Source: an uncultured Clostridia bacterium
Lineage (GTDB): Bacteria; Bacillota; Clostridia; Lutisporales; Lutisporaceae
Length of the DNA stretch: 38,161 nucleotides
Direction: 5' to 3'
Assembly: GCA_937930535.1 (NCBI GenBank)
Contig: CALGKJ010000179.1
Location: forward strand, 1 to 38,161
Shown: positions 10,750-27,701 of the stretch, piece by piece
Layout of the letters: each line of letters opens with the position of its first letter
Position numbering within the stretch: position 1 is the first letter of the stretch
Position numbers and translations under genes: made by a program
The notes under the pieces: generated by a model
Databases searched by the model: none
What the model saw: the letters and a program-made list of their open reading frames with translations, nothing else
What the model was told of the DNA's origin: nothing

Positions 10750-10825
10750 GGGCGGTTAGCTCAGTTTTGGTTAGAGTGCTTGCTTGACATGCAAGAGGTC
10801 GCTGGTTCGATCCCAGTACTGCCCA
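10750..10825 (+). tRNA. tRNA-Val (anticodon GAC)
   Basis: A complete cloverleaf: acceptor GGGCGGT with ACTGCCC (one G-U pair), D-arm GCTC/GAGT, anticodon stem CTTGC/GCAAG around loop TTGACAT (anticodon GAC, read as valine), variable loop AGGTC, and T-arm GCTGG-TTCGATC-CCAGT. Discriminator is A and the CCA end is encoded (10826-10828). Confidence 0.96.
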
Positions 10826-10963: not shown

Positions 10964-11018
10964 ATAAAATATGGTAAATAAGGGTGAGTCATACAAAAGC
11001 AATAAAGGAGGAAATCAA

Positions 11019-14000
11019 ATGAAGAAATTTAAACAGATCTTATCAAAGCTTTTGACGTTTATTTTTATGTTCAGCCTGATATTAAATACAGGCTTCAATA
11101 CTGTTTCTGCTCAAACTGTTACAAAAAAATTGGTGGCAGCTTTTGAACATGCTTTACTGTTAAAGGATGACGGAACTGTATGGGCTTGGGGAAACGATGC
11201 TTTTGGACGGCTGGGAAATGGAACAAGTGCTTATAATGGTATACCTCTGCAAGTAGTTGGACTGAATAATGTAATAGACATAGATAGCAGCAATTTTCAT
11301 TGCATAGCACTTAAAGCTGATGGAACAGTATGGACTTGGGGAGATAATGGCTATGGACAGTTAGGAGATGGAACTAATATAAACAGACGTACACCAGTGC
11401 AGGTACTAAGCAATGTAAAATCAATATCGGCAGGCTACTATAGCAGTATAGCTATAGCAAAGGATGGTACTGCATGGATGTGGGGATATAATATTAATGG
11501 ACAGCTAGGAGATGGAACAAATGCAAACAAAAATATACCAGTGAAGGTAGCTTCATTAACTGATGTTAAGAAAGTTATAACAAATGATGATCATAGTATG
11601 GCTTTAAAGAATAATGGTGATGTCTATGCTTGGGGTAGAAATAATTGCGGACAGCTTGGAAATGGCTATGAAACAGATACAACCATACCTGTCAAGGTTT
11701 TGGATTTAACAAATGTTAAAGATATTGCCTGCGGTTATGGCAGCAGCTTGGCACTAAAAGCTGATGGAACAGTGTGGAGCTGGGGCGATAATTGCTATGG
11801 GCAGTTAGGCATTGGGAATAATATCAATAAGAAAGTACCCCAAAAGGTTAATAATCTTACTGATATTGATGCCATAGTAAGTAATAATAATTATGGTTTT
11901 ATGGCATTAAATACTGATGGTACAGTATGGAGCTGGGGATATAATATTTATGGTCAGCTAGGGGATGGAACTACAAGTAATATAAATAGTCCAAAGCAAG
12001 TAACAGGATTAACTAACGTATCAGAAATAAAGAGTACAGGAAGCTTTAGTATAGCTAAAAAAGCTGACGGAACAGTATGGACATGGGGGTATAATGCTTT
12101 TGGTCAGCTTGGAGATGGTACTTTTGCAAATAGAGCTGAACCCCAGCAGATAAATGGAATTAGTGAAGTGTCTGTAATCGCATGTAATGCAAATTATGTA
12201 TTAGTAATAAAAAACGACGGAAGATTATATGGATGGGGTCGTAATATATACGGACAGCTTGGTGACGGCTCAGTATTTTATAGAAGCAAGCCTATGATAA
12301 TACCAGGATTAGAAAACGTTAGCAAGATAGACGGTTTTGGAAATCATGCAGTAGCTTTAAAAGATGATGGAACAGTATGGTCTTGGGGCAGTAACAAATA
12401 TGGACAGCTTGGTATAGGAACAAATGTGGAAAAAAAAGATACGCCGACACTTGTAACAGGTCTAAGTAATGTAATTGACATAAGCTGCAACTACCATACT
12501 ACTTTAGCCTTAAAAAGTGACGGAACAGTATGGGCATGGGGATATAATGGTTATGGACAGCTAGGTAATAACACTAATACAAACAGTAATATACCTGTAC
12601 AAGTATCAGGATTAGAAGGCGTTACAAAAATATTAATTAAAGGGGAACACTGTCTTGCACTAAAAAGTGACGGTACAGTATGGGCATGGGGTCAAAATTA
12701 TTATGGACAGCTAGGTAATAATACCACAGTAAACAGCAATGTACCTGTAAAGGTATTCGGGTTAAACAACATTGTAGATATTGCAAGCGGATATAATAAT
12801 AGTATGGCATTAAATAGTGAAGGAAAAGTGTTGAACTGGGGAAACAACAGCGGCGGACAGCTAGGCAATAATAATCAAGGAGTTGATGCATTGGTACCAG
12901 TGTATACGACCAATAGCATAAGTACCAGTAAAATACATTCTGGCTATAGTTCAAGCTATGAAATAAAAACAAATGGCTCAGTATATTCATATGGATACAA
13001 TAGTTTTGGGCAGCTAGGCATAGGCAATACTAATAATCAACCTAATCCAGCAAATATAACAATTGCCAGCCCAATAATAAAGCTGGATGCATATGTTGAT
13101 TATGCAACAGCACTAGCAGCAAACGGCAATGTATATTCATGGGGTGCAAATCATGCTTGTCAGCTAGGCGATGGAACAACAGTAGATAAGCCAAGTCCAG
13201 TCCAAGTAGTTGGACTAACCAATATCATAGATATTCTCATAGGTGTGGGTCATAACTTGGCACTAAAAAGTGATGGAACAGTATGGACATGGGGATTTAA
13301 CCAGTTTGGTCAATTAGGAGATGGCACTTTAGACAATAAAAGTACTCCAGTCAAGATATCAAATATGGACAATGTAAAGTCTTTTTTTCAAACTGGAAAT
13401 ACCAGCTATGCAGTAAAAAATGATGGAACAGTTTGGAGCTGGGGGCGAAATTCATTTGGCTTATTAGGTAATGAACGACAAATTTTATACACTGCAACTC
13501 CAGTACAAACCCAGATTGTACTAAGCACTGTAGAAATAAAATCAGCTCAAATAGACACAATATCTAAGAATAGTATCCAAGCATCATGGGACAGCGGCTC
13601 AACAGGGGAAACATGCTATATGCTGGCGGCTTTTGATAAAAGCAGTAATCTGATCAAACAAAATCAGTGGACAAGCAATCTGAGTGATACAATAACAGAC
13701 CTTGACGCTGCAACCGCATATACACTAAAGGTTAAGGCAAAGGATAGCTATGGCTACATTACTGATTGGTATGAGATCGGCACAGCGGCTACATTAGAAG
13801 AGCCGGATCTTGGTATATGGTCAACAAAGGCAAATATGCCAACTGCAAGATATGGTATGGCAGTAGTACAAGTAAACAATAGGATATACAGCATTGGAGG
13901 ATTTACAAATACTACATATACAAATGTAACAGAGGAATATAACTCCCTCACAAATGAGTGGACAACTAAAGCAAATATGCCAACTGCAAGACGTTTTCTA

Positions 14001-15167
14001 GGGGCAGCGGCAGTAAATAACAAAATATACGCAATAGGAGGATATACCGCATATGGTATAACCAATAAAGTAGAAGAATATGATCCAGAAACAGACCAAT
14101 GGACAACAAAAGCAGACATGCCAACCCCAAGGCATTATTTGGGACTGGCAATAGTAAATAATAAAATATATGCAATAGGAGGGTATACAGTTAACGGCAG
14201 GACAAACATAGTAGAAGAATACGATCCAGAAACAAATACATGGACAACAAAAGCAAGTATGCCAACCCCACGTTATGGCTTGGGAGCGGCAGCAGTAAAT
14301 AATAGAATATATGCAGTAGGAGGATATACAGAAAACGGCAGAATAAATACAGTGGAAGAATATGACCCAGTATCAGACCAATGGACAACAAAAGCAAGTA
14401 TGCCAACTGCAAGATATACTTTTGGAACAGCAGTTGCAAATAACAATGTATACATAATCGGAGGAAGCTTAAGCAGTGGAAGTACAAATATAGTAGAAAA
14501 GTATAATCCAGCCATAGATCAATGGGAAACAGTACTAAGTATGCCAACCACAAGATATCATTTGGGTGTAACGGCAGTTAATGACAAAATATATGCGATA
14601 GGCGGATTCTCTTCAATCGCTGGATTGCTCAATAAAGTAGAAGCATGGGGAAGCTCTTATTCGGGCATAGATTTATACTGCGAAATCGAAGATATGAATT
14701 TGTCGGCAGTAATAGATCCAACGATTTTATATGACAATCTAACTGCTGACAACACAATTATTACAGAATATGATACTACTGCTCCTGTTATTTCACATGC
14801 TTATTTATCCGCTGACAATACATATATTGATATAGTATTTGATGAAGGTGTATATGGAATGAATGACGGTACTACGGAACTTACAGCAGATAAGCTGGCA
14901 ATTAAAGTTACCAAAAACAAAGCTGATTCTACAGCAGGTGTAAAAATAAGCTCAATAAAGCAAAATAACAGCAGTAAAGAAAGCTCCGCTTCCGCTCTTG
15001 CAGGAGGAGAAACCATAATCAGAGTGTTCTTAAAAATCAGCGGAAAAGCTGATGAAATAGAAACCATTCAAATAACCCCTTATGATAAAGCTTCTATTTA
15101 TGATATAACAGGTAACTCAATGAAGATTGAACAAACCATTATTAAAACAGTTAACCACATTGAATAA
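11019..15167 (+). CDS. Large secreted double-propeller protein (RCC1 and Kelch repeats)
   Basis: A 1382-residue exported protein. Residues 1-31 are a signal peptide (basic start, hydrophobic core, VSA cleavage site). Residues about 40-825 hold 16 RCC1-type repeats of about 50 residues with the core VWxWGxNxxGQLGdGT. A fibronectin-III-like domain follows at about 828-925, then six Kelch repeats (about 938-1206: MPTxRyxxGxAxVNNKIYAIGGy...VEEYDPxTDQWTTKA). The C-terminal 165 residues resemble a bacterial Ig-like or SbsA-type domain (TTAPVISHAYLSADNTYIDIVFDEGV). No SLH, LPXTG or transmembrane anchor is visible, so it may be released or bound non-covalently. ATG 11019 is chosen for its AAAGGAGG; an upstream in-frame start at 10971 is poorer. 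Likely binds proteins or glycans; no enzyme motif seen. Confidence 0.9.
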   Translation: MKKFKQILSKLLTFIFMFSLILNTGFNTVSAQTVTKKLVAAFEHALLLKDDGTVWAWGNDAFGRLGNGTSAYNGIPLQVVGLNNVIDIDSSNFHCIALKADGTVWTWGDNGYGQLGDGTNINRRTPVQVLSNVKSISAGYYSSIAIAKDGTAWMWGYNINGQLGDGTNANKNIPVKVASLTDVKKVITNDDHSMALKNNGDVYAWGRNNCGQLGNGYETDTTIPVKVLDLTNVKDIACGYGSSLALKADGTVWSWGDNCYGQLGIGNNINKKVPQKVNNLTDIDAIVSNNNYGFMALNTDGTVWSWGYNIYGQLGDGTTSNINSPKQVTGLTNVSEIKSTGSFSIAKKADGTVWTWGYNAFGQLGDGTFANRAEPQQINGISEVSVIACNANYVLVIKNDGRLYGWGRNIYGQLGDGSVFYRSKPMIIPGLENVSKIDGFGNHAVALKDDGTVWSWGSNKYGQLGIGTNVEKKDTPTLVTGLSNVIDISCNYHTTLALKSDGTVWAWGYNGYGQLGNNTNTNSNIPVQVSGLEGVTKILIKGEHCLALKSDGTVWAWGQNYYGQLGNNTTVNSNVPVKVFGLNNIVDIASGYNNSMALNSEGKVLNWGNNSGGQLGNNNQGVDALVPVYTTNSISTSKIHSGYSSSYEIKTNGSVYSYGYNSFGQLGIGNTNNQPNPANITIASPIIKLDAYVDYATALAANGNVYSWGANHACQLGDGTTVDKPSPVQVVGLTNIIDILIGVGHNLALKSDGTVWTWGFNQFGQLGDGTLDNKSTPVKISNMDNVKSFFQTGNTSYAVKNDGTVWSWGRNSFGLLGNERQILYTATPVQTQIVLSTVEIKSAQIDTISKNSIQASWDSGSTGETCYMLAAFDKSSNLIKQNQWTSNLSDTITDLDAATAYTLKVKAKDSYGYITDWYEIGTAATLEEPDLGIWSTKANMPTARYGMAVVQVNNRIYSIGGFTNTTYTNVTEEYNSLTNEWTTKANMPTARRFLGAAAVNNKIYAIGGYTAYGITNKVEEYDPETDQWTTKADMPTPRHYLGLAIVNNKIYAIGGYTVNGRTNIVEEYDPETNTWTTKASMPTPRYGLGAAAVNNRIYAVGGYTENGRINTVEEYDPVSDQWTTKASMPTARYTFGTAVANNNVYIIGGSLSSGSTNIVEKYNPAIDQWETVLSMPTTRYHLGVTAVNDKIYAIGGFSSIAGLLNKVEAWGSSYSGIDLYCEIEDMNLSAVIDPTILYDNLTADNTIITEYDTTAPVISHAYLSADNTYIDIVFDEGVYGMNDGTTELTADKLAIKVTKNKADSTAGVKISSIKQNNSSKESSASALAGGETIIRVFLKISGKADEIETIQITPYDKASIYDITGNSMKIEQTIIKTVNHIE

Positions 15168-15936: not shown

Positions 15937-17448
15937 ATGCAGAAGTTAAACCTAGTGACACTGGAAAAAAAGCTGTGGGACTGTGCCGACATCCTGAGAG
16001 GTACTCTCAACTCAACACAGTACATGGAATACATATTTGGAATGTTATTTCTCAAAAGAATCAACGACCAGTTTGACGCAGAAAGAGAAGAAAAGAAAAA
16101 GCAGTTTTCAAAGCATCCAGCAGAAGCACTTGATAGAATATTGGAGGATGCCAAGGCTTACAGAACCTTCTTTATTCCCAAGCAAGCCAGATGGCAGAAC
16201 TTTAAGGATCTGAACCTAAACATAGGCGCAGAGCTTGACAAAGCCTTTAAAGCCATAGAGGACGAGCCCAAAAATGCCGAGCTGGTAGGGGTGCTCAGCA
16301 CAGCCAACTATAACGATAAGGAAAGAGTCCCTGACGGCAAGCTTAACCAACTGCTGCAAATCTTTGATGCAATGAATCTTTCCAACGAAGGGCTGGAAAG
16401 TCCCGATATACTTGGAGATGCATACATGTATCTTATTAAGAAGTTTGCAGACGATGGCGGAGCCAAGGGCGGAGAATTCTACACACCCAAGGAAATAAAG
16501 GAAGTCATGGTAAAGCTTCTAAAGCCACAAGAGGGAATGAGCATATATGACCCCTGCGCTGGCTCTGGCGGCTTTTTAATCAGCACGATAGAATATGTAA
16601 AAGCCAAAAATCAAAACCATAGAAATTTACAGATTTACGGACAAGAAATAAATCTTACAACCTGGGCAATTGCAAAGCTTAATATGCTGCTGCATGATGT
16701 ATCCGGCTCAACTATCTGGAAGGGCGACACCATAAGAGAGCCTAAAAATACAGATGGTTCAATACTAAAGACCTTTGATATGGTGCTTTCAAACCCTCCC
16801 TTCTCACTAAAAAACTGGGGCAGGGAAGCCGCCGAAAAGAATGACTACAATAGATTCAACTACGGTGTAGCACCAGCTTCTTATGGAGACTTGGGATTTG
16901 TTCAGCATATGCTTGCATCATTAAACTCCAAGGGCATCATGGCAAGCGTTGTACCTCACGGAATACTTTTCAGAGGCGGAGAGGAAGGAAAGATAAGACA
17001 GGGGATGCTGGAGGATGATATGTTTGAAGCAGTTATAGGTTTTCCTCAGAATTTGTTTTATGGGGCATCTATACCAGCGGCAGTCATAATATTAAATAAA
17101 AATAAATCACAAGACAAAAAGGGCAAAGTCTTATTTATAGAAGCCTCCCAAGGCTTTATAAAGGACGGCAACAAGAATAAGCTTAGACCCGAGGACATAG
17201 AGCATATTGTAAAAGCATATGAAACCTTTGCAGACGAAGACAAATTTGCCAAGGTGGCTACCCTTGAAGATATAAGGAAAAATGACTATAACCTGAATAT
17301 AACCAGATATGTAGATACCTCCCAAGAGGAAGAGGAAATAGATATAGCGGAGGTAATCAGCAGGCTTTCACAAAGAGAACAGGAGCTTGCAGAGTCCAAG
17401 GAAAAGATAAACTCATTCCTGCAACAGCTTGGATTTGAGAGGATATAG
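15937..17448 (+). CDS. hsdM: Type I restriction-modification DNA methyltransferase subunit HsdM
   Basis: A 503-residue N6-adenine methyltransferase. The N-terminal HsdM_N domain (LEKKLWDCADILRGTLNSTQYMEYIFGMLFLKRINDQF) is followed by the catalytic domain with the S-adenosylmethionine motif DPCAGSGGF at about 205-213 and the catalytic NPPF at 286-289. It methylates adenine in the target set by HsdS and is required for both modification and restriction complexes. The start has TAGGGGG 7 bases upstream. The stop is 11 bases before the preferred hsdS ATG. Both catalytic motifs are intact. It heads an operon hsdM-hsdS-hsdR-metallopeptidase. Confidence 0.97.
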   Translation: MQKLNLVTLEKKLWDCADILRGTLNSTQYMEYIFGMLFLKRINDQFDAEREEKKKQFSKHPAEALDRILEDAKAYRTFFIPKQARWQNFKDLNLNIGAELDKAFKAIEDEPKNAELVGVLSTANYNDKERVPDGKLNQLLQIFDAMNLSNEGLESPDILGDAYMYLIKKFADDGGAKGGEFYTPKEIKEVMVKLLKPQEGMSIYDPCAGSGGFLISTIEYVKAKNQNHRNLQIYGQEINLTTWAIAKLNMLLHDVSGSTIWKGDTIREPKNTDGSILKTFDMVLSNPPFSLKNWGREAAEKNDYNRFNYGVAPASYGDLGFVQHMLASLNSKGIMASVVPHGILFRGGEEGKIRQGMLEDDMFEAVIGFPQNLFYGASIPAAVIILNKNKSQDKKGKVLFIEASQGFIKDGNKNKLRPEDIEHIVKAYETFADEDKFAKVATLEDIRKNDYNLNITRYVDTSQEEEEIDIAEVISRLSQREQELAESKEKINSFLQQLGFERI

Positions 17449-17459
17449 GGGGAATGAGT

Positions 17460-18725
17460 ATGACTAAGATTAGAGAAGGTTATAAGGAGACGGAGATTGG
17501 GGTTATTCCTATGGATTGGGAGGTTGCAAAAGTGAACGATATTGCTACATTTGTAGGAAGTGGAATAACTCCCAAAGGTGGTCAGAATGTTTACACTTCC
17601 GCTGGAGTACCCTTTATCAGAAGTCAGAATGTACATCCGAATGCACTAAAGTTAGACGATGTAGTATATATTACAGATGAAATTAACAGCAAAATGAGAA
17701 GGACTATTTTAAAAGAAAAAGATGTCTTACTAAACATCACTGGTGCTTCAATTGGCAGGTGCGCTATTGTTCCTGTTGGTTTTGGTAAGGGTAATGTTAA
17801 TCAACATGTTTGCATAATTAGGGTTGATGATACTTATTCACCATTTTTTCTAAGTCAATTTTTAAATTCAAAGTTAAGTCGAAAACAAATAGATTCTTTT
17901 AATGGTGGATCGAGTAGAGAAGGATTGAATTTTCAGCAAGTTAGAAGCATATTATTATCAAAACCTCCGCTCCAAGAACAACAACGCATAGCAGAGATTC
18001 TCGCAACAACAGACGACCACATTGAAAAACTGGACAAGACCATTGAGGACTACCAACTTCTAAAAAAAGGCATGATAAAAAAATTTTTAACAGAAGGCAT
18101 TGGGTATACGGAGTTTAAAGATACTGAGGTTGGAAGGATACCTAAGGAGTGGGAAGTTAAGGAGTTGAGTGAAATAAGTGAAATAGTTACTGGTAGCACA
18201 CCCAAAACATCAGACAAAGAGAATTATGGAAATGAGTATATATGGGCTTCTCCTGCTGACTTAGGTAAAACAAAATATATTAATGTAACTACTAAAATGC
18301 TTAGTGAGGAAGGATTTTCAAAATCAAGACAACTACCTATAGGAACTATATTAGTTACTTGCATTGGTTCAACTATCGGGAAATTAGGTATTTTGAGTGA
18401 TATAGGAAGCACTAATCAACAAATAAATTCAATGATATGTAATGAAAATGCGTATAACGAATATGTTTACTATGCACTTGATTTTTATTTTGTGAAGTAT
18501 ACTTCTTATATTTCAACTCAGGCAGTGCCAATTATAAATAAAACAGTGTTTTCTAAACTTAAACTACCAATTCCACCACTACAAGAACAACAACAAATAG
18601 CCTCAATACTATCCGAGCTAGACAACAAAATTAACCTCTACCAAAAACAACGAGAAGACTACACCCAACTAAAAAAAGCACTAATGGAACAACTCCTAAC
18701 AGGAAAAATCAGAGTAAACCAATAA
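17460..18725 (+). CDS. hsdS: Type I restriction-modification specificity subunit HsdS
   Basis: About 421 residues in the classical two-half design. Each half has a target-recognition domain opening with a similar phrase (GVIPMDWEVAKVNDIA; GRIPKEWEVKELSEIS) and closing with a conserved helix (PPLQEQQRIAEILATTDDHIEKLD; PPLQEQQQIASILSELDNKINLY), the spacer helices that set the distance between the two half-sites. The two recognition domains are more AT-rich than the flanking genes, which fits exchange of specificity modules. ATG 17460 is preferred over 17454 because the AGGGGG lies 7 bases before it. Recognition sequence cannot be predicted by eye. No second or silent hsdS copy is in the window. 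Confidence 0.95.
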   Translation: MTKIREGYKETEIGVIPMDWEVAKVNDIATFVGSGITPKGGQNVYTSAGVPFIRSQNVHPNALKLDDVVYITDEINSKMRRTILKEKDVLLNITGASIGRCAIVPVGFGKGNVNQHVCIIRVDDTYSPFFLSQFLNSKLSRKQIDSFNGGSSREGLNFQQVRSILLSKPPLQEQQRIAEILATTDDHIEKLDKTIEDYQLLKKGMIKKFLTEGIGYTEFKDTEVGRIPKEWEVKELSEISEIVTGSTPKTSDKENYGNEYIWASPADLGKTKYINVTTKMLSEEGFSKSRQLPIGTILVTCIGSTIGKLGILSDIGSTNQQINSMICNENAYNEYVYYALDFYFVKYTSYISTQAVPIINKTVFSKLKLPIPPLQEQQQIASILSELDNKINLYQKQREDYTQLKKALMEQLLTGKIRVNQ

Positions 18726-18754
18726 TATACAGATAAGAAGGGGGGATGCCTACA

Positions 18755-21700
18755 ATGACAGACTATCTAGGCAATGAATATACCCTTGTAGAAAAACCAG
18801 CTATAGATTATTTAGTAAACACCTTAGGCTATGACTATATAGATGGCACAAAGCTGACTCCCGCCTATGGCGAAAGGGAGTCCTTTCGTGATGCAGTCCT
18901 TGTAAACAGACTAAGAACTGCACTCAAACGCCTAAACCCTTGGATGAACGAGCAGTCCCTAAGCACAACAGTTAGATTCCTTTTAAACAGTCAGTCTCTT
19001 GGTACTTCTCTATTGGAAATAAATGAGAAGATACATAAAGCATTAGTAGACTTGGAATTTACAGTACAGCAGGAAGTAAAGGGACAAAAGAAAAACCATA
19101 CAGTAAGGTTTATAGACTTTGACGATATCAGCAATAATGATTTTTTAGCTGCCAGACAATACGAGGTACAGGGCATCAACAAAACCATAGTGCCGGATAT
19201 TGTAATATTTATCAATGGAATACCTGTAGTAGTAATAGAAGCCAAGTCACCCTTCAAAGAAAATGCAGAAAATACTAAGGCTGGCAAAAAGGATGCCTAC
19301 AACCAGTTGAGAAGATATATGGACATCAGAGACGGCTCTGTATCAGAGGGAGCAGAGAGACTTTTTCATACAAACTTTTTTACAGGCATTATCAATAAAT
19401 ACCATGCATATGCAGGTACTATTAGCAGCAGCTATGACTACTACCTAGAGTGGAAAGACCCCTATCCCTTCAAAAAAGAGGATATGGAAGACATAGAAAA
19501 CAATCAACAAAACCTGTTTTTGCAAGGAATGCTTGAAAAAAGCAATCTGCTGAAAATCATGCAGTTCTTTATCATCTTTGAAACTGAAAGCGACGTAAGG
19601 ATAAAAAAGCTGGCAAGATATCAGCAGTTCAGAGCCTGCATGAAAGCCTTAAAAAGAATCGAAAAGGGCAAAACCCCCTTAGAAAAGGGAGGCGTTATCT
19701 GGCATACCCAAGGATCAGGCAAGTCTCTCAGTATGGTAATGCTGGCAAGAATGATCAGAAGAACAAAAGAGCTTCAAGATACCATGCTTGTAGTTGTTAC
19801 AGACAGGATTGATCTGGATAAGCAGATTTATAATACCTTTTCAAGGGTATTTCCTGCTGAATACACTCTGGCGGAGTCTAATCTGGATAAGCTGCTTACT
19901 AGAGCTGAAACAGTACAGGAAATGAAAACCCTGCTGTCTATGGCACAAGCCAAAATAATCTGCACCACCATACAAAAATTTCAGTGCAAAGCAGACGAAA
20001 ATCCTATTCTGGAGGACGGAACACAAGCTTCGGCACTGTTTTTTGACAAGGAAATAGAGGTGCTTACAAATAAATCAAAGGTTATTGTATTTACTGACGA
20101 GGCTCACAGAAGCCAGTACTCCAATCTCTCCATGAACATGAGAAAGGCACTGCCCAATGCCGCTTTTATAGGCTTTACGGGTACACCTATTGAGAAGGAT
20201 GACAAGTCAACCTATAGAACCTTCGGAGCTTTAATCGACAGCTATACAATTTCACAGGCAGTTGAGGACGGCAATACGGTAGCTATTGTATACGAGGGCA
20301 GACGACAAGACCTTCATATTATTCAAGACAAGCTGGATGAGGATTTTAACGAGTACTTTAAGGACAAGAACGAGGATGAAAAGGAAGCCATAAAAAAGAA
20401 ATATTTCAACAGGCTTTCACTATCTGAGGCCGACGACAGAATCAACGATATTGCCAGAGATATGCTGCTTCACTATAGAGACAACAGTCATAAGCTTGGC
20501 TTTAAGGCACAGCTTGTTACTGTTTCAAGACTTGCATGTGTAAAGTACTATGATGCACTGCAAAAGCATATGCCGGAAATCTTTGGAGATAATGCTATAG
20601 AAATAAGGATCATATACTCCTGTGAAAACAACGAAGAGCCATATCTGGTAAAACACAGAACATCAAAAGCAGAGCAGGATCAAATAATAAGCAGGTTTAA
20701 AAAGGAAATAGAAAAGGACAGGCTGTGCATAATCATAGTTAAGGACATGCTGCTGACAGGCTTTGATGCACAAATAGAGGATGTAATGTATCTGGACAGA
20801 CCACTAAAGGAGCATACTCTATTACAGGCAATAGCAAGAGTAAACAGAACCTATGACAAGGAATACAAAGCCATTGACGAGCATGGAAACGAAATAAAGC
20901 ACCAGAGAACAAAAAGCTACGGCAGAGTTGTAGACTATTTTGGTATAACCAGACATTTGGATGAAGCACTAAGAATATTTGACAAAGAAGATGTTGGCGA
21001 ACCAATGGAGAATATTGACTCCCTATTCAAAAAGATGCTGGACTACAAGGAAGCAGTAATGAGAATCTTTGCAGGTGTAAACAAAAGCGATCTGGATGAG
21101 CTTATGAATGTACTGAAGCCTGAAAACAAAAGGGCGGAGTTTGATATGGCATATAAAAGGTTTGCAGTTGCGGTAAATGCTCTGATGCCATCACATGCAA
21201 GGCAGGAGGATTTAAACGATTTAAAATGGATGTCATATATCCGTGCTGGAGCAAAGGCAAGGTTTGAGCCTGAGAATGCCATTGACATAAGCGACTGCGG
21301 AGAAAAAGCCAGAGAGCTTATTTCGGCACATCTGAAATCACAGGGAGTTTATCAGTGGATAGAGCCGATCACACTATTTGACAAAGACTTTAAAGCCAAG
21401 ATAAATCACGGTTCAGATGAAGCTATTGCTTCTACTATGGAGCATGCTATCAAACATGCAATAAGTGTAAGGATGAGTAATAATCCAGTACATTATACCT
21501 CCCTGCTGGAAAGACTAATGAGGATACTAGAGGAAACAAATATGAACTGGGAGGAAAGAAGAAGACAGCTTGAGCAGTTTGTTGAGAGAGAAATGAACCA
21601 CAGTGAGGAAAATCTGGTTAAACAGCATAACTTAAAGGATAAAAGGCAGCTTGCCATATTTGAAACAATACAAAAAGCTCTGAAAAAAGAAAGGGCGGCA

Positions 21701-21955
21701 GAGGAAGCAGTATATTATTTCGATTCCAGCCAAGAGGATGTCATAAGAAATATCACTTTGGCTATTGAGGAGGTTATTCTAAACACCAGAGTAAAGGGGT
21801 TTAGGAACAATCCCACCAGAATATCAGAAATGGAAACCGCCGTTTATAATATGCTGATGTCAAGGTACTATAATGAGCTGGAGTATGATGCTATTGCACA
21901 GCTTACTGTTCCGCTGATTGATCTGGCTAAGATTCACTATGAAGATATGGAGTAG
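18755..21955 (+). CDS. hsdR: Type I restriction-modification endonuclease/translocase HsdR
   Basis: About 1066 residues. The N-terminal nuclease domain shows the PD-(D/E)xK pattern with D148 (PDIVIFINGIP) and E162-A-K164 (VVVIEAKSP). The superfamily 2 motor follows, with Walker A GSGKS at 320-324, DEAH at 448-451, motif III GFTGTP and motif VI AIARVNRTYD. The C-terminal helical region would join the HsdM/HsdS complex. It cleaves unmodified DNA after ATP-driven translocation. ATG 18755 is preferred over 18746, which touches the GGGGGG ribosome site. All key residues appear intact, so the system is probably active. Confidence 0.96.
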   Translation: MTDYLGNEYTLVEKPAIDYLVNTLGYDYIDGTKLTPAYGERESFRDAVLVNRLRTALKRLNPWMNEQSLSTTVRFLLNSQSLGTSLLEINEKIHKALVDLEFTVQQEVKGQKKNHTVRFIDFDDISNNDFLAARQYEVQGINKTIVPDIVIFINGIPVVVIEAKSPFKENAENTKAGKKDAYNQLRRYMDIRDGSVSEGAERLFHTNFFTGIINKYHAYAGTISSSYDYYLEWKDPYPFKKEDMEDIENNQQNLFLQGMLEKSNLLKIMQFFIIFETESDVRIKKLARYQQFRACMKALKRIEKGKTPLEKGGVIWHTQGSGKSLSMVMLARMIRRTKELQDTMLVVVTDRIDLDKQIYNTFSRVFPAEYTLAESNLDKLLTRAETVQEMKTLLSMAQAKIICTTIQKFQCKADENPILEDGTQASALFFDKEIEVLTNKSKVIVFTDEAHRSQYSNLSMNMRKALPNAAFIGFTGTPIEKDDKSTYRTFGALIDSYTISQAVEDGNTVAIVYEGRRQDLHIIQDKLDEDFNEYFKDKNEDEKEAIKKKYFNRLSLSEADDRINDIARDMLLHYRDNSHKLGFKAQLVTVSRLACVKYYDALQKHMPEIFGDNAIEIRIIYSCENNEEPYLVKHRTSKAEQDQIISRFKKEIEKDRLCIIIVKDMLLTGFDAQIEDVMYLDRPLKEHTLLQAIARVNRTYDKEYKAIDEHGNEIKHQRTKSYGRVVDYFGITRHLDEALRIFDKEDVGEPMENIDSLFKKMLDYKEAVMRIFAGVNKSDLDELMNVLKPENKRAEFDMAYKRFAVAVNALMPSHARQEDLNDLKWMSYIRAGAKARFEPENAIDISDCGEKARELISAHLKSQGVYQWIEPITLFDKDFKAKINHGSDEAIASTMEHAIKHAISVRMSNNPVHYTSLLERLMRILEETNMNWEERRRQLEQFVEREMNHSEENLVKQHNLKDKRQLAIFETIQKALKKERAAEEAVYYFDSSQEDVIRNITLAIEEVILNTRVKGFRNNPTRISEMETAVYNMLMSRYYNELEYDAIAQLTVPLIDLAKIHYEDME

Positions 21956-25052: not shown

Positions 25053-27701
25053 CTATCGCTTTTTTTCTCCAAAAAGTTCATCCATCTGTTGTTTGGTTTC
25101 AACAGTTAATGTATCCTTTAGACAATTAATATTTACTGTTTGTTTTGCTTGATAAGCTTGGACAACCATTTCATTAGCTCTTTCAATTTCTTCCTTAAGC
25201 TCTCTGGCGGATAATAAGGAACAGCCTGCGCCCCTGATAATAATCTGCTGCAAACCGTCTGAGGTTGCAACCACTATATTATATTTTTTCTGATTGTCAC
25301 GGGCAAATTTTTCAATATACTGATCCGCTGTTTGTGCTTCTTTGGTATATACCACATGGATATTATAGTAGTCGATTACTTCTTCAAGATGCCCCTCAAC
25401 ACGATAAGCATCAAACACCACAATAATATGACATTTGCGAATAGCCTGATAATTACTTAGTGAATCAAGCAATTTCATTCTTGCACCGTCCATATTTCCA
25501 TCAGCAAGGGTTTTAAGCTCAGACCATGCATAGATAATATTATAGCCATCTACAAGAAGATATTCTTCCTTAGCTTCTTTTGGTTCGTTTGTATAGGCAG
25601 CCGATTTATAATAACTTTCGGGAGCTGTTCTTCGTTTTTGCCAAACAGATTTTTTTCCTTGATTTGCATAATAGGTTCGCTCAAGGATCTTATCAATTTC
25701 CTCTGGGTCAATCCATTTGTCCTCTGAATACGAAGCTTGATTTACAGATGCTTCTTCCAATAAGCTATTCTTTTTCTGAAAGCAGCTTTCAATATGCATA
25801 TGGTTTTTTACTTCATCCCAACTAACCAAAAAGCTTGTGCCATTTGCACAAAAGACAGATTCTGCTGGATTTCCCAAGTCCCTTTCAGAGTCATAGCCTA
25901 TCATTTTTATGATTTCTTCAGTATTATGACAGGGTTCATACCCCTTTAGACTGCAAAAGAGCCTGCCCTGACCCCTAGTATAGGCAGTCACATCCTTTTG
26001 ATAGTTTCTCATGGCAGCAACAGGAGCTGTCCCTGTAAGAACTGCTATTTCACCTTCTATATGTGAAATTTGGCAAGTCCCATGCATTTTCTCAACGTCC
26101 GTCATAGCACGGCCTACCATTTTTTCAGGCAGCTCAAGATGAAAGGCATAATACGGTTCTAATAATATAGACTCCGCTTCCATTAAACCCTGACGTACTG
26201 CACGATAGGTAGCCTCTCTAAAGTCACCGCCTTGTGTATGTTTATTATGTGCTTTGCCTGAGACTAAAGTAATTTTCATGTCTGTAATTGCCGACCCTGT
26301 AAGAACCCCTTTATGAACCTTTTCTTCCAGATGGGATAAAATAAGTCTTTGCCAGCTTTTACCCAGCAAATCCTCACTGCATTCTACCCCAAACTGTAGA
26401 CCGCTTCCACGCTCATCCGGTTCCATTAACAAGTGAACCTCAGCATAATGCCGCAAGGGTTCAAAGTGTCCTACTCCTTCTACCACATTTGCAATAGTCT
26501 CTTTATAAACAATCTTACCTGAATCAAATGATACCTCTATACCAAAGCGGCTTTGTATAAGACTTTGCAGAATTTCGGTTTGCACCTCGCCCATAATCTG
26601 CACCTTGATTTCCTTAAGCTGCTCATCCCAGACAATATGAAGCTCAGGATCTTCCTCCTCCAAGAGGCGCAGCTTAGGTATCATTACTCTTGGGTCACAG
26701 CCTTCTGGAAGTATAATTCGATAAGTCAATACAGGCTCAAGTATAGGTATATTTGAAGCTTCCTCTATCCCAAAACCTTCTCCCGGTTTAGTTTGACTAA
26801 GTCCTGTTACTGCACATACAGAACCTGCCTCTATCTCATTTACAGCTTCAAATTTCTGTCCTGAATAGATTCGGATCTGATTAACCTTTTCTTCCCAAGC
26901 ACCGTTTTTCAAAGTATCTCTTACCTTAAGTATTCCGCCGGTAATCTTCATATAGGTAAGGCGGTTCCCTTGTTCGTCCCTGCTGATTTTGAATATTCTG
27001 GCTCCAAACTTTTCGGGGTAAGAAGGTGCTTCGGCATACTTCACAATATCTTGAATAAATGCCTCAATGCCTTCTAATTTCAAAGCTGATCCGAAAAAAC
27101 ACGGAAATACCTTGCGTTTTCTGATGGCTTTCTTAATCTGTGGGGTTAGGATATGTTCTGTTTCCAAATAGGCTTCCATGAGTGTTTCATCACACATAGC
27201 CAATTGCTCATTAAAAGCTTCTGTCTCGCCATGTCCGAATTCAATACACCCATCACCCAATTGTTTTCTTAATTCATTTATTATTTTTCCTTTGTCAGTC
27301 CCATTTTGGTCCATTTTATTTATAAATAAAAAAACCGGTATCTGATATATGGAAAGCAAACGCCATAAGGTTTTAGTATGCCCCTGTACGCCATCTACTC
27401 CGCTTATCACTAAGATGGCATAATCCAGCACTTGGAGTGTTCTCTCCATCTCCGTTGAAAAATCTACATGACCCGGAGTATCTAATAAGGTAATCTGTGT
27501 ATCAGCCACTTCGAATATAGCCTGCTTGGAAAAAATAGTAATGCCTCTTGCTCTTTCCAGCTCATAGTTATCCAAATAGGCGTCTTTATTGTCCACACGT
27601 CCCAATTTTCGTATTTTACCGCTTAAGTAAAGCAGACTTTCTGATAATGTTGTTTTACCTGCATCTACATGTGCTAATATCCCAATAACCAACTTTTTCA
27701 T
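25053..27701 (-). CDS. TetM-like ribosomal GTPase fused to a YacP/Rae1-like NYN nuclease domain
   Basis: An 882-residue protein. Residues 1 to about 640 are an EF-G-type translation GTPase of the TetM/TetO ribosomal-protection group: AHVDAGKT (10-17), DTPGH (74-78), NKMD (128-131), then domains II-V including MVGRAMTDVEKMHGTCQI and GQGRLFCSLKGYEP. Residues about 713-870 are a YacP-like NYN domain: LLVDGYNIIYAW, IVVFDAYRVEG, AQTADQYIEKFA and VATSDGLQQ, with acidic residues D718, D764, D793 and D815. Rae1/YacP of Bacillus subtilis is an endoribonuclease acting in the ribosomal A site. The fusion suggests a factor that binds stalled ribosomes and cuts the mRNA, or a tetracycline-protection protein with a recruited nuclease. 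AAGGATTG precedes the ATG. Confidence 0.88.
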   Translation of the reverse strand: MKKLVIGILAHVDAGKTTLSESLLYLSGKIRKLGRVDNKDAYLDNYELERARGITIFSKQAIFEVADTQITLLDTPGHVDFSTEMERTLQVLDYAILVISGVDGVQGHTKTLWRLLSIYQIPVFLFINKMDQNGTDKGKIINELRKQLGDGCIEFGHGETEAFNEQLAMCDETLMEAYLETEHILTPQIKKAIRKRKVFPCFFGSALKLEGIEAFIQDIVKYAEAPSYPEKFGARIFKISRDEQGNRLTYMKITGGILKVRDTLKNGAWEEKVNQIRIYSGQKFEAVNEIEAGSVCAVTGLSQTKPGEGFGIEEASNIPILEPVLTYRIILPEGCDPRVMIPKLRLLEEEDPELHIVWDEQLKEIKVQIMGEVQTEILQSLIQSRFGIEVSFDSGKIVYKETIANVVEGVGHFEPLRHYAEVHLLMEPDERGSGLQFGVECSEDLLGKSWQRLILSHLEEKVHKGVLTGSAITDMKITLVSGKAHNKHTQGGDFREATYRAVRQGLMEAESILLEPYYAFHLELPEKMVGRAMTDVEKMHGTCQISHIEGEIAVLTGTAPVAAMRNYQKDVTAYTRGQGRLFCSLKGYEPCHNTEEIIKMIGYDSERDLGNPAESVFCANGTSFLVSWDEVKNHMHIESCFQKKNSLLEEASVNQASYSEDKWIDPEEIDKILERTYYANQGKKSVWQKRRTAPESYYKSAAYTNEPKEAKEEYLLVDGYNIIYAWSELKTLADGNMDGARMKLLDSLSNYQAIRKCHIIVVFDAYRVEGHLEEVIDYYNIHVVYTKEAQTADQYIEKFARDNQKKYNIVVATSDGLQQIIIRGAGCSLLSARELKEEIERANEMVVQAYQAKQTVNINCLKDTLTVETKQQMDELFGEKKR

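Follow-up and report, generated by a model that had tools for sequence, protein, structure and literature searches.

What is the role of a translational GTPase that ends in an mRNA-cutting domain? The window (the whole stretch of DNA that we analyzed, 38,161 nucleotides) encodes an 882-residue protein that joins an EF-G-like GTPase to a nuclease domain of the Rae1 type. A sequence-only reading had described it as a ribosomal-protection, TetM-type GTPase fused to an NYN nuclease that could be delivered to stalled ribosomes, making a rescue, defense or drug-response factor. The fusion itself, the signature residues of both halves and the Rae1-like nature of the NYN domain held up; the TetM label and the defense role did not. 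Carriers of the fusion have Rae1 as the tail of a GTPase, and several of them keep broken pieces of the old rae1 gene; the fused protein thus probably does the work of Rae1 in these genomes and is less likely to confer tetracycline resistance.

The architecture is already known. One sentence in Atkinson 2015 (PMC4342817) reports that Tet proteins of ten clostridial species acquired a YacP-like NYN RNase domain, in line with the similar clostridial fusions that the sequence-only reading had mentioned, and suggests a new resistance mechanism with RNase activity. Going by that description, these Tet-like GTPases match the fusion in architecture. Beyond Atkinson 2015, we found no functional study or other mention of the fusion in the open-licence papers searched. 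What is new here is its distribution, its exclusion of standalone Rae1, the rae1 remnants and the difference in the tip loop.

A Rae1-type nuclease at the end of an EF-G-like GTPase

The gene is a single open reading frame of 882 codons without interruption, with Pfam domains in both halves:

25053..27701, minus strand: whole fusion gene, EF-G-like GTPase and Rae1-type NYN nuclease, 882 aa (ORF, Pfam)
27030..27692, minus strand: G domain, aa 4-224 (Pfam GTP_EFTU, E 6.5e-52)
26787..27008, minus strand: EF-G domain II, aa 232-305 (Pfam EF-G_D2)
26526..26738, minus strand: EF-G domain III, aa 322-392 (Pfam EFG_III)
26175..26519, minus strand: EF-G domain IV, aa 395-509, which in EF-G and TetM reaches into the A site of the 30S subunit (Pfam EFG_IV)
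26220..26249, minus strand: domain IV tip loop HNKHTQGGDF, aa 485-494 (alignment with TetM/O/S/W/B(P), OtrA-like and EF-G)
25923..26165, minus strand: EF-G C-terminal domain V, aa 513-593 (Pfam EFG_C)
25782..25922, minus strand: C-terminal extension common to unfused relatives, aa 594-640 (alignment)
25566..25781, minus strand: linker, aa about 641-712, mostly disordered by prediction (pLDDT mostly <50)
25074..25559, minus strand: NYN_YacP (Rae1) nuclease domain, aa 715-876 (Pfam, PDB 5mq8/5mq9, conservation)

By its EF-G domains I to V (Pfam) and its intact GTPase motifs, the first part belongs to the EF2-family translational GTPases. The motifs that had been read from the sequence are present as claimed (AHVDAGKT at residues 10-17, DTPGH at 74-78 and NKMD at 128-131), together with RGITI, and the G1, DTPGH and NKMD residues are nearly invariant across 22 fusions sharing 47-87% identity or more with the window protein, in which the NYN signature residues, too, vary little or not at all. 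The C-terminal extension contains the insert SVFCANGTSFLVSWDE, absent from the aligned tetracycline-protection proteins, and is followed by a linker whose length ranges from 64 to 113 residues in 32 relatives. The same fusion forms a single frame of about 850-930 aa in dozens of relatives, including one at 87% identity. We rejected a sequencing or assembly artefact, which had been raised as a possibility, because one frame recurs in dozens of genomes.

The C-terminal part matched NYN_YacP with an E-value of 2.2e-52 (177.8 bits against a Pfam cut-off of 24.6) and, by sequence, the solved Rae1/YacP of Bacillus subtilis (5mq8/5mq9; E 6e-23). The predicted structure of residues 580-882 had Rae1 as all of its top three PDB matches (5mq9/5mq8; E 8e-13 to 1e-11). 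The AF2 models were moderate (pLDDT about 72, pTM about 0.5), with a full-length domain arrangement too uncertain for docking. D718, N721, D764, D793, E797 and D815 were 100% conserved, both across 41 fused NYN domains and across 37 standalone ones, so that the acidic residues, reported earlier as intact, proved invariant; at the level of sequence, this indicates that the fused nuclease domain is under constraint. The B. subtilis enzyme has the same domain and conserved acidic residues. With about 170 aa, that enzyme stands alone, whereas the NYN domain described here is the tail of an 882-aa GTPase. B. subtilis Rae1 is described as cleaving mRNA in the ribosomal A site of translating ribosomes (PMC6613710, PMC10100781, PMC12320835).

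Elsewhere in the window, positions 15937-21955 encode a type I restriction-modification system (hsdM, hsdS, hsdR) and, after it, a YgjP-like metallopeptidase, and a 1398-aa protein of RCC1 and Kelch repeats lies at 10971-15167, just after a tRNA gene (10750-10825). A search of the window for regulatory RNA returned only a tRNA, far from the fusion gene.

The fusion and standalone Rae1 rarely share a genome

We combined searches for NYN_YacP and for the GTPase across 293 genomes of the class, each at least 90% complete. Families and genera are cited by rank label (f, g), and the class was taken as Clostridia from the named relatives Agathobacter and Monoglobus. The fusion occurs in about a third of these genomes (103) and standalone Rae1 in 88, counts that were transcribed from tables with unprinted matches placed by subtraction, and in which a handful of fragments, cut by a contig end or broken in frame, are included as fusions. 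The two were found together in a single genome against 31 expected (Fisher p 2e-19, a value that ignores kinship). Only that genome among those sampled, G295 (L088, L089), combines the fusion with an intact standalone rae1, which lies at rlmB. Where present, NYN_YacP is nearly always single, in a frame of either about 850-950 or about 170-215 codons; a second NYN copy in f22 genomes was rejected, as its match fell under the Pfam cut-off. The window's own genome (4.69 Mb, 97% complete) follows this pattern, in that its single NYN_YacP domain is the one in the fusion. In many genomes of the class, neither form is present.

Families f1, f18, f22 and f43 each include both states, as do genera g2, g7 and g28, and the exclusion therefore reflects more than a single deep split. 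A wider draw of 299 genomes at the level of the phylum had the fusion in 18. It is also encoded, at about 53% identity, by two "Bacteriophage sp." scaffolds from human feces (MT835563.1 and MT835514.1; L169, L170), unverified entries that are possibly bacterial contigs filed as phage.

Remnants of rae1 at its ancestral locus in fusion genomes

Standalone rae1 of Clostridia lies between rlmB and sigH, whereas the fusion gene sits elsewhere in the genome; the fusion thus falls outside the rlmB-rae1-sigH order, which is a matter of synteny and not of function. In a relative from the same family that lacks the fusion, the gene order is cysS-rmuC-mrnC-thyX-rlmB-rae1-sigH, with names assigned by sequence inspection and known synteny. 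The window's genome has sigH directly after rlmB, with 347 bp between them. Within this gap (contig C145, L165 about 1302-1445) lies a degraded, correctly oriented stretch of rae1 that corresponds to the last 52 residues of Rae1 (44% identity over aa 122-173, E 7e-7) and lacks the catalytic part. A second alignment in the gap (aa 31-47, E 0.016) overlaps the first and was treated as chance.

We extended the comparison to 29 genomes in which rlmB was found. The four genomes with an intact rae1, G295 among them, have 630-745 bp between rlmB and sigH; in the other genomes with sigH in reach, all of which carry the fusion, the distance is 99-601 bp and an intact rae1 is absent. Besides the window's genome, four fusion genomes retain rae1 remnants at this place: G042 of family f22 (aa 48-143, 6 stops, E 7e-19), G010 of f1 (aa 73-154, 2 stops, E 1e-12), G114 of f47 (aa 72-103, 1 stop, E 3e-9) and G014 of f1 (aa 135-173, E 2e-8), all E-values referring to a short search space. 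Counted in fusion genomes, remnants were thus present in five genomes from three families in all, and three of the remnants contain stop codons.

Decay in place of rae1 in three fusion-carrying families is what one would expect if cells with the fusion can do without the free enzyme. As many genomes have neither form, loss of rae1 alone is no proof of replacement. Altogether, the near-exclusion and the remnants at the old locus strengthen the idea of a ribosome-targeted nuclease, and the fusion has, in our assessment, very probably replaced standalone Rae1.

From replacement to a proposed delivery by the GTPase

That the fusion replaced standalone Rae1 and that its GTPase also brings the nuclease to stalled ribosomes is a fuller claim, which we infer from homology and consider reasonably likely. 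Domain IV of both TetM and EF-G is placed in the A site (PMC7456112, PMC8161019), and their release from the ribosome apparently requires GTP hydrolysis (PMC8161019). By analogy, the GTP-bound GTPase part would bind a stalled 70S ribosome with an empty A site and position domain IV in the decoding center. GTP hydrolysis would then cause domain IV to leave the A site, which the NYN domain, on its flexible tether of 64-113 residues, could take in order to cut the codon there, leading to ribosome rescue and mRNA degradation. A single A site should not have room for domain IV and the NYN domain at once, so their action would be sequential or would take place on a neighboring ribosome.

The GTPase part also occurs alone. 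A maximum-likelihood tree united the fusions and unfused proteins of about 650 aa in one clade (100% ultrafast bootstrap). The latter, "translation factor GTPase family" proteins such as L125, L131 and L162, form a sister group which has the HxKHTxGGDF tip and the C-terminal extension of the fusions but lacks the NYN domain. Unfused GTPases with the HxKHTxGGDF tip are found among loci L124-L141, and a relative carried by Ligilactobacillus salivarius plasmids (41% identity) is annotated as TetM-family resistance. Within the clade, the fused GTPases grouped together at 0.90 in FastTree and 23% in IQ-TREE, which would weakly support a single origin of the fusion. Two standalone NYN_YacP proteins, L080 (G220) and L086 (G236), grouped with the fused domains and not with the other standalone ones; both genomes also carry an unfused GTPase on another contig. 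From these placements, fission or a pre-fusion state is possible.

The unfused proteins raise the strongest alternative, namely that the chain does two jobs, the GTPase keeping a translation role of its own and the NYN domain doing that of Rae1 independently, with the fusion serving co-expression only. Unfused GTPases of the same subfamily are present in 20 genomes, 7 of which have no Rae1 among those listed, and the long, disordered linker would suit independent halves. Co-occurrence of the unfused GTPase with standalone Rae1 in the sampled genomes showed a weak trend that was not significant (p about 0.1), and gene content therefore does not independently prove that the two functions are coupled. 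Against this alternative, homology points to one and the same ribosomal site of action for both parts, the fusion is kept as one frame across many families, and separation is rare, with G220 and G236 as possible cases. We regard two independent jobs as rather unlikely, and continue to favor delivery of the nuclease by its GTPase.

More tentatively, the distinct GTPase subfamily marked by the HxKHTxGGDF tip might be a machine that is driven by GTP and specialized in delivering A-site mRNA cleavage. It would recognize stalled ribosomes, hand the A site to the tethered Rae1 domain through GTP hydrolysis, and have displaced free Rae1 repeatedly across Clostridia; we see this as conceivable rather than likely. 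The fusion would then be a bacterial GTPase-coupled ribosome-rescue nuclease, to our knowledge one without counterpart.

The GTPase differs from tetracycline-protection proteins

Could the fusion instead be a ribosomal-protection protein, conferring resistance to tetracycline or another drug and equipped with RNase activity as Atkinson 2015 suggests? Its best NCBIfam match is indeed tet_protect (NF012153), public annotation labels one relative "TetM/TetW/TetO/TetS family", and its overall domain layout, EF-G-like, is that of TetM, TetO and TetB(P). The match reaches 443 bits against a cut-off of 775, on which TetM itself scores 880, so "ribosomal-protection GTPase" describes a resemblance and not membership. 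Identity to TetM and TetO is about 30%, and in the tree TetM, TetO, TetS, TetW, TetB(P) and the OtrA-like protein formed the opposite clade (100% ultrafast bootstrap). A further EF-G/Tet-like group (L144-L147, L150), with tips of the HxxH[ST]xxxDF type such as HVVHTKAPDF, fell on the Tet side of the tree; its two scored members (L144, L147) are under the tet_protect cut-off.

The tip of domain IV differs as well. All six aligned Tet proteins have SPxSTxADF, whereas the fusions and their unfused relatives have HxKHTxGGDF with few exceptions. K487 of the window protein stands at the position of TetM Pro509, which overlaps bound tetracycline (PMC7456112, PMC8161019); this position is proline in all six Tet proteins and lysine in 30 of 32 fusions. 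The loop-II tryptophan present in every aligned Tet protein is serine in 27 of the 32. The fusion further differs from TetM, TetO and TetB(P) by its extra C-terminal insert and its nuclease. Its five-domain layout and GTPase motifs are those of elongation factor G, and H485 aligns with the EF-G tip histidine, but the rest of the tip is unlike that of EF-G (YHEVDSSEMAF type); the window's genome also encodes separate EF-Gs.

Judged by these sequence comparisons, the GTPase part is not a typical TETRACYCLINE-protection protein, and its TetM likeness is one of resemblance. The fusion is also widespread and has no conserved neighboring genes, and a resistance protein of this kind is now an improbable account, weaker than that of two independent jobs.

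Other roles proposed for the nuclease

Cleavage or maturation of rRNA or tRNA by a GTPase-delivered NYN domain would revive an older prediction for YacP. The first role predicted for NYN domains was in rRNA/tRNA maturation (cited in PMC4342817), and rae1 has the rRNA methylase gene rlmB as its neighbor; with characterized Rae1 described as cutting mRNA in translating ribosomes (PMC6613710, PMC10100781, PMC12320835), we hold it to be very unlikely. The least probable role is that of an anti-phage or abortive-infection factor: A-site mRNA cutting could stop phage translation and a type I restriction-modification system is nearby, but a PADLOC model search of the fusion gave no match at E 0.01, 24 fusion loci had no conserved gene neighborhood, and one copy per genome with apparent replacement of a housekeeping nuclease speaks against defense.

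Implications

If the fusion is a Rae1 delivered by its own GTPase, many Clostridia, including the gut bacterium Agathobacter rectalis, would cut the mRNA of stalled ribosomes with a nuclease carried by a GTPase. The search of Rae1 for a stalled A site and its entry there would become directly testable, since here the nuclease and its presumed delivery factor form one chain. Gut-bacterial genes annotated as TetM-family resistance may then be housekeeping translation factors, and such annotation would inflate resistance-gene counts.
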